Positions 1,481 through 32,557 of a DNA stretch of 33,022 nt are shown here, one piece after another. The stretch covers positions 1 through 33,022 of IMG/VR virus record IMGVR_UViG_3300048834_000360; one strand, written 5' to 3'. Position 1 is the stretch's first letter; each line of letters opens with the position of its first letter. A program made the translations under genes and the position numbers. The notes under the pieces are model-generated. The model did not search any database. It worked only from the letters and a program-made list of their open reading frames with translations, and was not told where the DNA came from. This stretch comes from a virus.

Positions 1481-2137
1481 ATGATCCGAGCACGATTCGT
1501 GGCGGCAGCCGCGGCGAGCGTCCTGGCACTCGCCGGGTGTGGCGGAGGGCTTCAGGCCACCACCCAGGATGCGACCGAGGCGCAGTCAGCGCCGGCTGAG
1601 GCTTCCGCTCCGGCCAGCACCCCCGGAGCCTCGTCGGCTGCCCCTGAACCGGCACCGGAAGAGTCCGACCCCGTCGTCGACGAGCCGGTAGAGAGCCCCT
1701 CCCCGGCCGACGGATTCACCGAGCTGCAGTACGGCCAGCCCCTGTCCGTCTCGTCCGACGACGGCACCATGTCGAGCACGGTGACCGTGGGGAAGCCGCG
1801 GATCGCCAAGTGCCAGTACCAGTCCCTGGGGTGCGAGAAGCCCGAGATCGGCGACCGAGTCGTGACCGTGCCGCTGCTCATCGAGAACTCCGGGACCGAG
1901 ACCGCTGAGTGGAGCCCGTCCTACTTCGTGCTCGAGTTCGCCGACGGAACCCAGGTCGAGGCTGGAGACGGGAATGCCTTGGACTACCAGCCCGACAACT
2001 CCTTGGGGTACGGGCAGAAGGTCCGCGTGAACGGCAAGCTCAAGACGTCACTGACGTTCGAGGCGCCGAAGGGTCCCTTCTCCGTGCTGATCCTGGACAG
2101 CCCGTTCGACGGGGAGCCGTTCGCGGCGTGGTCCTAG
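1481..2137 (+). CDS. Secreted lipoprotein, DUF4352-like, candidate lysogeny-expressed surface protein
   Basis: A 218-aa predicted lipoprotein. Residues 1-19 are a signal peptide (MIRAR then an Ala-rich hydrophobic core) ending in the lipobox LAGC, with Cys20 as lipidation site. Residues about 25-75 are a Pro/Ala/Ser/Glu-rich linker. Residues about 80-218 form a compact domain whose pattern (VPLLIENSGTETAEW, then FVLEFADGTQVEAG) resembles the DUF4352 immunoglobulin-like fold. Two Cys (CQYQSLGC) may form a disulphide. A good Shine-Dalgarno (GGGGAGA) precedes the ATG. It is on the integrase strand, outside the late operon. Phage lipoproteins in this position can block superinfection; that role is inferred. 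Confidence 0.85.
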   Translation: MIRARFVAAAAASVLALAGCGGGLQATTQDATEAQSAPAEASAPASTPGASSAAPEPAPEESDPVVDEPVESPSPADGFTELQYGQPLSVSSDDGTMSSTVTVGKPRIAKCQYQSLGCEKPEIGDRVVTVPLLIENSGTETAEWSPSYFVLEFADGTQVEAGDGNALDYQPDNSLGYGQKVRVNGKLKTSLTFEAPKGPFSVLILDSPFDGEPFAAWS

Positions 2138-2160: not shown

Positions 2161-2406
2161 CTACCCTGCCAGGCGTCGCACGGACCGGGCGGCGAGCCGT
2201 GCGGCCCGCAGGCGCCGGAGCCGCTTGACGGTTGTGGGTGCGTAGGCGAGCGCGTCGGGCTGGTCGATGAGGGCATTGACCCTCTGCCAGTACGTCGTGG
2301 CTGAGATCCCGAGCTCGTCGCGCATGGCCTGTTCCTGGGCGCCGGGGTACCGGTACCAGCGTCCAGCAAAGTCGAGGAGCGCGCGCTCGGCATCGGTCAG
2401 GGCCAT
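2161..2406 (-). CDS. DUF3263-family small protein
   Basis: An 81-aa protein matching the actinobacterial DUF3263 pattern along its whole length: LLDFAGRWYRYPGAQEQAMR, then GISATTYWQRVNALIDQPDAL and VKRLRRLR. The first ATG of the conserved region is used; an open frame continues upstream but overlaps the next gene and is not family-like. No clear Shine-Dalgarno is visible. It is the last gene of the minus-strand accessory unit, 29 bases after the membrane protein gene, and converges with the lipoprotein gene across a 23-base gap. The basic C-terminus and helix pattern suggest nucleic-acid binding, but the family function is unknown. Confidence 0.85.
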   Translation of the reverse strand: MALTDAERALLDFAGRWYRYPGAQEQAMRDELGISATTYWQRVNALIDQPDALAYAPTTVKRLRRLRAARLAARSVRRLAG

Positions 2407-2435: not shown

Positions 2436-2957
2436 TCAGGCAGTCGCCATCGAGTACGCCCGATGGAGACGCTTGGCGCACATCGCCATCGTGGCCACGT
2501 AGTGCAGGGTCAGGAACAGCAGCAATGCCGTCTGAAGGCCGCTCGCCCACCCTGATGGCAGCGGACTCATGGGCCACTCGACGGACACCACGATCACGGC
2601 GGCCAACACGCTCGCGAAGGCAACCAGCAGGGCGTAGGCGATATTGACGAAAAGCTGGTCGATGAGTTCTCTGAGCCCGTTGTCGTCCGGGACGCGGGGG
2701 TCGCTTGCCACCTGAAGCCTGAGCTGAAACACGAAGATCAGCAATCCGAACGTGAATCCAGTGAAGACGGCGAGTCCAGCGATCAGCTGTCCAACCTCTA
2801 CCAACCGGAAACCGATGCTTGGGGCCACAACAGCGACTAGCAACGGAAGGCCGAACTGCGCCAAGTAGTCCCAGACCAAAGGCCTGGAGGTCCGCGCATC
2901 ACGGAGAGTGTCGAAGTGCTCAGTGACGATTGCCGTAACCGAGGTCTTGGCGCTCAC
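2436..2957 (-). CDS. Four-helix membrane protein, RexB-like partner of the upstream gene
   Basis: A 173-aa integral membrane protein with four predicted transmembrane segments at about 32-49, 55-78, 102-126 and 138-160. It has a polar N-terminus, a polar loop at 80-100 (VASDPRVPDDNGLRELID) and a short basic C-terminus. The GTG start has a strong ribosome binding site (GAGGGGAG) about 6 bases upstream. It lies 33 bases downstream of the 304-aa soluble protein gene on the same strand, so the two are probably co-transcribed. No specific family is recognised by eye. Size, four-helix topology and pairing with a soluble partner are those of lambda RexB and of the four-pass partner in mycobacteriophage prophage exclusion pairs; function is inferred from this context. 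Confidence 0.75.
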   Translation of the reverse strand: MSAKTSVTAIVTEHFDTLRDARTSRPLVWDYLAQFGLPLLVAVVAPSIGFRLVEVGQLIAGLAVFTGFTFGLLIFVFQLRLQVASDPRVPDDNGLRELIDQLFVNIAYALLVAFASVLAAVIVVSVEWPMSPLPSGWASGLQTALLLFLTLHYVATMAMCAKRLHRAYSMATA

Positions 2958-2990
2958 TGTGGCTCCCCTCGTGGCTCGTGAGAGGGTGCG

Positions 2991-3905
2991 TCATTCATGG
3001 GGATGCTGATCGTTCAGCCCATCAATCAGTTGACGCGCCTCTCGCAACGAGTATCGCACGAACTGATCGTCGGGCAGCGGCTCTTCATTCGGCTCGGACA
3101 GAACGACTCTGATCACGGGCGTGCGCTCCCGCCCCAGGATCACCGTCTTTCGCGTACCGTCATCACTGAGGGTCATGGTCACCTCTTCGATGTCCAGATC
3201 CTCGGATAGGCCCAGCACTCGAGCCCTGGAGATGTCTCGGTTCATCAGCCTTCGCTTGAGACTTTGAGGCAGGTACCGGGCTCCTTCTTCGGGGACCAGC
3301 TGGTACCTCATGTTGCCGACCTTGGTTGGCCTTCCTTGGTCGGCTAGATCGGCCCGGTGCCCGTATGCCACCGCGGTGACGGCTTCCAGTTGCGCCAGTT
3401 CAAGCCAGTCCTGGGATCGGACTACCGTCTCGATCTGCAGCGTCAGCCCGGTCTGCAGGCTGACCCACGCGGAATGGGTCTCCTTCAGGAGGCCCTGGTC
3501 CGCAGATCGATGACTCCCATGCTCAATGCAGGCGATGGCCGAGCGTGATCCAAGAGGGGCCACAATGGCGATGCGGAGCGTGACTGCAGGAGCATCCGAT
3601 GACGTGAGTTTGTATGAAGTCTGCCCGGTGTTGACGTCGCGTACGAGCGGGATGTCGCCGATGGTTCCCGTTTCGACCGTTGCGAGAACAACCCGGTCAC
3701 TTCGAGTCACTGAAGTCACATTCCGGAACGTGCGTTTCACATGGTCGACCTGGGCACCGCGCTTGCTCATGTCCGCCAGAACTGAATGACACAGGTCTAG
3801 GAAGTCGACTTCCCCCGGGAGGCGGGAAAGGATTTGGCGCTCGCTGTCCCTCTTACGCGCCTTGTGCGCGAAGAGGTGCTTGAACGTCATCGTTCGGTGA
3901 GCCAC
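2991..3905 (-). CDS. Soluble protein of a putative two-gene exclusion system (RexA-like layout)
   Basis: A 304-aa protein without signal peptide or membrane segment. The N-terminus is basic (HLFAHKARKRDSERQILSR). A beta-rich middle runs about 70-165 and contains AIACIEHGSHRSADQGLLKE (124-143). The rest, about 165-304, is mixed alpha/beta and ends in an acidic helix. The GTG start at 3905 is preceded by AGGGGAT. That Shine-Dalgarno region partly overlaps the 3' arm of a small hairpin (CCCCC 3915-3919, GGGGG 3927-3931), so translation may be tuned. I cannot assign a named family. Position between integrase and lysis genes, its own transcription unit and the membrane partner suggest a lysogen-expressed defence or exclusion sensor. 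Confidence 0.75.
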   Translation of the reverse strand: MAHRTMTFKHLFAHKARKRDSERQILSRLPGEVDFLDLCHSVLADMSKRGAQVDHVKRTFRNVTSVTRSDRVVLATVETGTIGDIPLVRDVNTGQTSYKLTSSDAPAVTLRIAIVAPLGSRSAIACIEHGSHRSADQGLLKETHSAWVSLQTGLTLQIETVVRSQDWLELAQLEAVTAVAYGHRADLADQGRPTKVGNMRYQLVPEEGARYLPQSLKRRLMNRDISRARVLGLSEDLDIEEVTMTLSDDGTRKTVILGRERTPVIRVVLSEPNEEPLPDDQFVRYSLREARQLIDGLNDQHPHE

Positions 3906-3967
3906 TGATCCCCTCCCCCTGACTTTGGGGGCAGACTGCCAGACGCCTGTCCGGTTTGTCCCCGGAT

Positions 3968-4019
3968 CGCCTCAAATGAGGCGAGGGCCGCACAACGGGG
4001 GAGGAGTACGGCCCTCGCC
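3968..4019 (-). terminator. Two overlapping inverted repeats, probable end of the late operon
   Basis: GGCGAGGGCCG (3980-3990) pairs perfectly with CGGCCCTCGCC (4009-4019) around an 18-nt loop. CGCCTC (3968-3973) pairs with GAGGCG (3978-3983) around AAAT. The two stems share bases 3980-3983, so they are mutually exclusive. They lie downstream of the endolysin gene, where a terminator is expected. No U-run follows, so this would be a hairpin-only terminator, or an alternative-fold switch in the leader of the next operon. Confidence 0.45.
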
Positions 4020-4087
4020 CGTCCACCCTACGGTGCGGCGGACGGGACGCACCAAGGCCCCGGCTCGCGCCCGCGGGTCCGGGTTCG

Positions 4088-31165: not shown

Positions 31166-32333
31166 CGTCGTCGCCCTTCATGAGGGCCTTGTCGTCGGCG
31201 GTCAGCGGGTAGCCGAGGCCGGCCATGTTGCGGGCGTGCTCGTCGAACCAGTACAGGCGCCGGTTGTGGATGCTGGTCCACGACAGGGCCAGGGCCATGA
31301 CCTGGTCCTCACGCGGCAGCGCCTTCAGTGAGGTAGCGATCCGCTGATAAGCGTCGTCGACGTCCTCGTCCTCCCCCGGCGGGTCGATGCCGAGCAGCGG
31401 GACAGCATCGGTCAGGTCGGAGTCGGTAACCGCGGCTTCGACCGCCCAGGAGATCAGCCGGTCGAGGAACACCTGGTCGCGCACGGCGATGCGTGCGGAC
31501 GCCCAGTCGTACATCCGCTCGGTCGCCTCGCTGACCTTGGCCTGATGGGCTTCGCGCTCCTGTCGCTGCCGTTCCCACTCGGCTTCCCGGTCGGCGCGGG
31601 TAGCGGCCCCGTCGATCGTGTACTCGTCGTCCACCTCGCCGTCGGTGTCGGCCTGGGGTGGTTTGGTGGCGCGCTTGCGCTCGTCGAGGAGCGCGGAGAT
31701 CCGGGCCTTGACGCCGTAGCCGACGCCGGCGAAGCCGTAGGTGCCGGCGCCGTCGATCAGGGTCAGGATCTCTGTGTCGTCGGCGTACTTCTGCCGCAGC
31801 CGGGCGCACTCGACCGCGCCGTCCAGGGACAGCCTCCCGGCCTCGTACTGCTGCCGACGCTCGGTCGGCAGGGACGCCAGCAGGAGCCGCTCGTGGACCG
31901 TCTTCCGTGACCGGCCGGTCGCCTTCGCGATCGCGGTCTCCTTCACGCCGAGGAGTTCGAGCTGCTGGTAGGCGTCGGCTTCCTCCATCACGGTCAGGTC
32001 GGAGCGCATCACGTTCTCGACGACCATCGCTTCCAGCACCTTGGCGGGGGTGTCGAGGTCGTCGCGGACGATGCACGGCACGGACTCGATGCCGGCCTTG
32101 ATGGCGGCGGCGTGGCGCCGGTGCCCGGCGACAATCACGTACCGATCGACCGGCAGAGTGACGTGCTCCTGCGCCTCGTTCGTGAGCGGGATCGGGGCGA
32201 CGACCAGGGGCTGGAGCAGGCCCTGCGCCTTGATAGACGCGGCGAGCTCGCCGAGGTCGCCAAGGTCGCGGCGGACGTTCCGGTCATGGGACTGGATCCG
32301 GTCGACCTTGATCCGCTCGAACGTCGCGGTCAT
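31155..32333 (-). CDS. ParB-like nuclease/CTPase domain protein
   Basis: A 392-aa protein. Residues 1-115 form the ParB N-terminal domain: the GxRR-type motif (AGHRRHAAA) and ENVMRSDLT are the CTP/NTP-binding and ParB boxes. Residues about 125-160 include an HTH (KETAIAKATGRSRKTVHERL). The rest is a long charged helical region (ADREAEWERQRQEREAHQAK) and a C-terminal domain. The ATG overlaps the upstream stop (ATGA). No ParA is present in the window, so a partition role is unlikely; DNA binding in replication, transcription or host takeover is more probable. Confidence 0.9.
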   Translation of the reverse strand: MTATFERIKVDRIQSHDRNVRRDLGDLGELAASIKAQGLLQPLVVAPIPLTNEAQEHVTLPVDRYVIVAGHRRHAAAIKAGIESVPCIVRDDLDTPAKVLEAMVVENVMRSDLTVMEEADAYQQLELLGVKETAIAKATGRSRKTVHERLLLASLPTERRQQYEAGRLSLDGAVECARLRQKYADDTEILTLIDGAGTYGFAGVGYGVKARISALLDERKRATKPPQADTDGEVDDEYTIDGAATRADREAEWERQRQEREAHQAKVSEATERMYDWASARIAVRDQVFLDRLISWAVEAAVTDSDLTDAVPLLGIDPPGEDEDVDDAYQRIATSLKALPREDQVMALALSWTSIHNRRLYWFDEHARNMAGLGYPLTADDKALMKGDDDAE

Positions 32334-32557
32334 CGGGCACCGTCCGTGCGCGCGACGGCGGCGTTCGACCAGAACATGACTTCCTCGAGCTTGGTGATCG
32401 CGAGTGCTTGCTCACGGCCGGCCGGGATCTCCTCGACCAGCTGGCGGGCGAGGTCCAGGCACAGCTCGCGGATCAGGTCATGCTTCGGGCCGGTCGTTGG
32501 TGTGGCGGGGTGGAACCGGAACCGGTTGTCCAGGTCCGCGCGGGTCAGCGGGTTCAT
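32330..32557 (-). CDS. acb2: Acb2-family cyclic-nucleotide sponge, probable anti-CBASS
   Basis: A 75-aa protein. Residues 45-70 (PAGREQALAITKLEEVMFWS, then NAAVAR) match the helical hairpin signature of Acb2/T4 Vs.4-type proteins (REx-LAxTxLExxxxWxNAxIAR), and the N-terminal F13-R-F15-H-P with K25 fits the ligand-binding part. Acb2 hexamers sequester cyclic di- and trinucleotides made by CBASS and related immune enzymes. Strong AAGGAGA precedes the ATG. The gene is complete and lies with early genes next to WhiB and ParB, as expected for a gene expressed early in infection. Confidence 0.82.
   Translation of the reverse strand: MNPLTRADLDNRFRFHPATPTTGPKHDLIRELCLDLARQLVEEIPAGREQALAITKLEEVMFWSNAAVARTDGAR

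Follow-up and report, generated by a model that had tools for sequence, protein, structure and literature searches.

A two-gene RexAB-like unit in a virus record and its relatives in phages, plasmids and chromosomes

Gene order and flanking features

The window, that is, the whole 33,022-base IMG/VR virus record analysed here, encodes on its minus strand two genes, A and B, separated by only 33 bases (Table 1), and an ORF check confirmed this layout as it had been described in an earlier, sequence-only reading of the same DNA. The purine-rich stretches AGGGGGAGGG and GAGGGGAG are found just 5' of the GTG starts of A and B, respectively. The late operon of the window runs leftward, with the terminase at about 26 kb and the tape measure gene at 13.8-16.7 kb, and 324 bases separate the endolysin gene from gene A. 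The pair had been assigned to a lysogeny-side block beside the integrase; an integrase is indeed nearby, but the pair actually lies between the lysis cassette and a DUF3263 gene, and no repressor gene adjoins it in the window.

Table 1. Coordinates of the gene pair and of the features around it.
Feature	Position in window	Strand	Description and evidence
Gene A	2991-3905	-	304-aa soluble RexA-like protein, GTG start; ORF, tblastn/HMM relatives, hhalign, AF2
Gene B	2436-2957	-	173-aa four-helix membrane protein, RexB-like, GTG start; ORF, hhalign, AF2
Shine-Dalgarno-like AGGGGGAGGG	3911-3920	-	5 nt 5' of gene A GTG; from sequence
Shine-Dalgarno-like GAGGGGAG	2963-2970	-	5 nt 5' of gene B GTG; from sequence
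Strong hairpin	3976-4020	-	Between endolysin and gene A; fold of 3940-4030, -47.3 kcal/mol, z -2.7
Direct repeat GTGAAACAAAA	4088-4112	-	2 exact copies, 14 bp apart, absent from rest of window
r1t-type holin	5170-4931	-	Same strand as A/B
M15 endolysin	4934-4230	-	Same strand as A/B
DUF3263 gene	2161-2406	-	3' of A/B pair; Pfam PF11662, E 2.1e-28; also 3' of the pair in contig L011
Tyrosine integrase	223-1377	+
Putative secreted lipoprotein	1481-2137	+	Beside integrase; weak DUF4352 match, E 4e-5, below cut-off

The base composition of the pair differs from that of its surroundings. The G+C content of A and B is 60-61%, compared with 68.6% for the whole window, and their third-position G+C (0.70 and 0.79, respectively) is lower than that of eight other measured genes (0.81-0.95), which fits cargo acquired separately.

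Two features 5' of the pair might bear on its expression. The late operon may end at the strong hairpin, which would then cut the pair off from lytic transcription. The direct repeat GTGAAACAAAA, for which 0.11 copies would be expected with one mismatch allowed, compared with the two exact copies found, is a candidate operator that could bind a regulator. A simple scan gave no sigma-70-like promoter. Expression of the pair in the lysogen from a promoter of its own is conjecture on our part; lysogenic expression from their own promoter has been reported for genes 30 and 31 of Sbash (PMC6426606).

Elsewhere in the window (32330-32557, minus strand), and adjoining a ParB-like gene, a 75-aa protein with an Acb2/Tad1 hairpin domain (PF24729, E 3.8e-17) is encoded. 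The domain is named after anti-CBASS and anti-Thoeris nucleotide sponges, and the prophage may carry counter-defence besides defence.

Predicted proteins and the distribution of their relatives

The gene order A, B, DUF3263 recurs on another IMG/VR contig (L011), with protein identities of 71% for A and 73% for B. Between the two contigs, mismatches fall on 49-52% of third positions but on 14-22% of first and second positions, and dN/dS is approximately 0.16 for both genes (0.22/1.43 and 0.19/1.22). The conserved order, the low dN/dS and the excess of third-position mismatches indicate that A and B are real genes, and both are under purifying selection.

Searches of Pfam, PHROGs, PADLOC and NCBIfam gave no significant match for either protein, in agreement with the earlier reading, which could name no family for them. 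That reading would have taken an unrelated metabolic family as refuting its proposal, and no relation of A or B to any metabolic family was found. An NCBIfam match to MlaD (E 0.017) was far below the cut-off and was rejected. Matches of a PDB profile search, including T7 Ocr, had E-values above 1 and were rejected as chance.

The division into a soluble and a four-pass membrane protein held up, since A lacks any hydrophobic segment and B has four. The AlphaFold model of B (pLDDT 85.8, pTM 0.83), for which aligned relatives were supplied, has a short helix at the N-terminus and four long ones, a predicted four-helix membrane fold, and its lysine and arginine counts favour cytoplasmic termini. 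Its best match in BFVD is A0A0A7RXT6 from Mycobacterium phage Sbash (TM about 0.6, probability 1.00), a protein of 165 aa, which is the length of Sbash gp31. Two substitutions in the central loop of gp31 abolish defence (PMC6426596), the residues concerned being R70 and D73. By eye, R80 of B occupies the position of R70 at the end of helix 2, whereas the equivalent of D73 is not clear.

The model of A, built with aligned relatives as input, is of the mixed alpha/beta type (pLDDT 78.2), with a predicted order of seven strands with two helices, a strand-rich middle domain and a long C-terminal helix; as a pattern, rather than by superposition, this order resembles the published topology of RexA. 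The structure predictions and fold searches proposed in the earlier reading thus led B to the Sbash protein and gave a divided result for A. Two phage proteins described as "recombination-associated" were among its significant matches in BFVD (E 3.2e-5 and 2.6e-4, TM 0.3-0.4), in agreement with the published finding that the closest structural relative of lambda RexA is the recombination-associated protein RdgC (PMC11077077), and we take the model to suggest a fold similarity of A to RdgC-type proteins. The search of the PDB, by contrast, gave no significant match, and neither RexA nor RdgC was among the 50 best. Two further BFVD entries, A0A8S5S8L2 and A0A8S5S8H0, both from Siphoviridae sp. 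ctylc9, matched A (E 8.4e-11) and, weakly, B (E 0.22, probability 0.99), which suggests that this phage carries a still more distant pair.

Profile comparison with hhalign placed A with CarolAnn gp44, Sbash gp30 and Sejanus gp46 over its full length (320 columns, probability 99.3-99.6, E 1e-20 to 1.4e-24), while the controls, consisting of six unrelated window proteins taken forward and reversed and two reversed reference alignments, gave E-values of 0.09-0.9. Even A of the window and L011 alone matched CarolAnn/Sbash at E 1.1e-6. For B, the comparison with CarolAnn gp43, Sbash gp31 and Sejanus gp45 gave E 1.1e-5 to 1.3e-5 (reversed control 0.13). At the level of sequence profiles, homology of both partners to CarolAnn gp44/gp43 and Sbash gp30/gp31 is thereby demonstrated.

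Single-protein scans of viral contigs gave no relatives, and small alignments were needed as queries to find them. Relatives detected by tblastn and alignment-based scans include the Gordonia phages DumpsterDude and Doggs, plasmids of Microbacterium and Glutamicibacter, Pseudomonas Pf filamentous phages and further viral contigs, and chromosomes or assemblies of Gryllotalpicola, Nonomuraea, Blastococcus and a Mycobacterium MAG. Within the order of Gryllotalpicola, the soluble protein was found by HMM search in 8 of 396 genomes. A match on a Microvirga plasmid (L006) was rejected, as the matching frames contain no long open frame, and a scan with A10 (B of Microbacterium/Glutamicibacter) yielded nothing new. 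Relatives of the pair thus detected have a much wider distribution than had been described. The homologous soluble and membrane proteins of two Pf phages (L008, 412-1883, and L009, 2524-3995) are annotated as hypothetical proteins, and both phages also carry a superinfection exclusion gene.

The co-occurrence of the two genes in other genomes, which had been suggested as a check, was found throughout: at all 27 scored loci, some of them near-identical and the weakest HMM matches included, the next ORF after A, adjoining or overlapping it, encodes three to four hydrophobic segments. One further locus (L020) has an adjacent pair that is interrupted by masked bases. Distances between A proteins correlate with those between B proteins (r 0.91, n=20), with none of 2000 permutations as high, which indicates that partners have not been swapped.

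Several bacterial copies have defence genes as neighbours. On the Microbacterium plasmid NZ_CP072877.1 (L049, 2630-14821), the pair adjoins a complete type I restriction system and a TIR-domain protein. One genome (G107) has type I M, S and R genes adjoining the pair on the same strand, and another (G177) encodes PD-Lambda-1 and DUF4420 (PD-(D/E)XK-like) proteins near it; among the neighbouring genes tested, none beside the remaining chromosomal copies was recognised as a defence gene. The restriction and PD-Lambda-1 neighbours fit a defence role also outside phages. Fragments annotated as ComEC/competence genes also occur on NZ_CP072877.1 near the TIR, type I restriction and A/B genes.

Candidate functions of the pair

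Taken together, we hypothesize that the pair, expressed from the prophage, is probably an abortive-infection system of the RexAB type, in which A switches on the membrane effector B. In this model, A would be an RdgC/RexA-like protein, soluble, associated with DNA and probably dimeric, which is inactive in the lysogen and responds to some DNA or protein feature of a phage that enters the cell. Once switched on, A would act on the cytoplasmic side of B, at its N-terminus and central loop, and B would permeabilise or depolarise the membrane, so that the energy supply drops and the attacking phage is stopped. A is likely DNA-sensing, and the requirement for two genes, the infection trigger, the growth arrest and the membrane effect are inferred from homologues. 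Counted against this explanation are the undetected similarity to lambda RexA and RexB, the absence of RexA and RdgC from the 50 best PDB matches of A, the lack of an adjacent repressor and of a sigma-70-like promoter, and a profile of B that is nearer to Butters gp31 than to its CarolAnn counterpart.

The last of these points belongs to an unlikely alternative, in which the roles are reversed: A would act against phages as the effector, and B would keep A inactive at the membrane and release it upon infection. In Mycobacterium phage Butters, gp30 by itself is sufficient to block phages and gp31 weakens its action (PMC7542560), genes 30 and 31 are likewise placed behind the lysis cassette, and the profile of B is closer to gp31 (E 1.1e-7, nearly whole length, reversed control 0.11) than to CarolAnn gp43 (E 1.3e-5). 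A also gives a partial match to gp30, in its C-terminal half (E 2.5e-4, probability 42.6, 186 columns, reversed control 0.14). However, A matches CarolAnn/Sbash over its full length and much more strongly (E 1.4e-24), and the pairs of CarolAnn, Sbash and P. putida (RexAB) depend on both genes, with the membrane protein acting as effector (PMC12894663). Given the reversed roles in Butters, an effector role of B in the RexAB-type model is likely but not certain.

Considerably less probable is a role of the pair in the phage switch. RexA alone biases the lambda switch (PMC11077077), and the model of A resembles recombination-associated RdgC-type proteins; however, homologous pairs on plasmids and chromosomes adjoin restriction systems rather than phage switches, and A and B are never split at the scored loci. 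The proximity of the r1t-type holin and the M15 endolysin, together with a weak PHROG holin match of B (E 0.11), could point to B as an extra holin or antiholin and to A as an accessory lysis protein, but this is highly improbable and a lysis function for B was rejected, since its profile matches the window's own holin only at background level (E 0.10), relatives occur in non-lytic Pf filamentous phages and on plasmids and chromosomes that have no lysis genes, and the strong hairpin lies between the endolysin gene and the pair.

Comparison with known RexAB-like systems

There is still no agreement on the trigger of RexAB or on the way in which its membrane protein halts the phage. In the family assembled here, tens of sequence pairs are available in which both partners have conserved residues, among them G80, G83 and P117 of A, and the pair is shown in filamentous phages and in defence neighbourhoods; with these homologues, the sensor-effector model and the contradiction between the Sbash and Butters models would become testable by comparison. 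The added value lies in the breadth of the family and in its bridging position.

RexAB was the first abortive-infection system to be tied to anti-phage defence, and only five RexAB-like systems have been described (PMC12894663). By its sequence relationships, the window pair is an additional RexAB-like system, of well supported membership and predicted defence function. The earlier reading had left the choice between a new member and a new type of system, and the homology of both proteins to those of Sbash and CarolAnn decides for the former and against the latter.

The same reading had likened the pair to lambda RexA/RexB or to the Sbash pair. The Sbash and CarolAnn part of this likeness stands, by profiles for both proteins and by structure for B, whereas sequence homology to the lambda proteins is undetectable. 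The Pfam RexA and RexB models (PF15969 and PF15968) matched neither A nor B at E up to 1, and profile comparison gave E 0.13 for A against four RexA sequences and E 0.16 for B against three RexB sequences. CarolAnn gp44 and gp43 did not match the Pfam models either (E up to 10), and the CarolAnn/Sbash profiles were also negative against lambda RexA and RexB relatives (E 0.32 and 0.27). Therefore, the window pair cannot be set apart from accepted RexAB-like systems on the basis of this negative result. The lambda and window pairs both consist of a soluble protein and a four-TM membrane protein encoded in the same order, and the similarity to RdgC-type proteins that is published for lambda RexA is suggested by the model of A as well, but the window pair has no adjacent cI-like gene, unlike the lambda cI-rexA-rexB operon.

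The pairs of Gordonia phage CarolAnn and of Sbash, whose role in defence is established by experiment, share with the window pair the co-directional order with the soluble protein first and the four membrane helices, and the Sbash pair is likewise placed after the lysis cassette. Defence by CarolAnn 43/44 needs both genes, and an early Kita protein was concluded to turn toxic when the CarolAnn pair is present (PMC6426606); non-specific DNA binding and dimerisation have been shown for CarolAnn gp44, Sbash gp30 and Toast gp42 (PMC11077077). The window pair differs in forming a well supported separate branch of the tree, in that A is about 65 aa shorter than the CarolAnn/Sbash soluble proteins, and in that D73 of the Sbash gp31 loop is not evidently conserved in B.

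Gordonia phage DumpsterDude gp44/gp43, which is listed as a Rex homologue (PMC11077077), belongs to the same tree group as the window pair, to which it is homologous (28% identity for A, 34-35% for B; tblastn E 1e-12 for B), and has the same order of the pair with a DUF3263-like gene and an integrase nearby. Its pair is, however, directly 3' of an immunity repressor, whereas the window pair is 3' of a lysis cassette, and its A extends further at the C-terminus. By description, the pair also resembles PP_5643/PP_5644 of P. putida (RexABpp), a soluble DNA-binding sensor and a four-helix membrane effector (PMC12894663), which sits in a gammaproteobacterial prophage.

The Butters pair has the same layout as that of the window, but its soluble protein gp30 is longer (403 aa, compared with 304 aa for A), and its reported roles are the opposite of those in CarolAnn/Sbash. 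The CarolAnn/Sbash profiles alone do not recognise the Butters pair (E 0.036 and 0.45), and it is the window pair that, by profile comparison, links the two systems. We tentatively suggest, with slightly less than even confidence, that all of them might belong to a broad and largely unannotated two-gene defence superfamily, consisting of an RdgC/RexA-type sensor and a four-helix membrane effector, which would occur in tailed and filamentous phages, plasmids and chromosomal defence islands of Actinomycetota and Pseudomonadota, and would connect CarolAnn/Sbash with Butters, with lambda RexAB as a strongly diverged branch.
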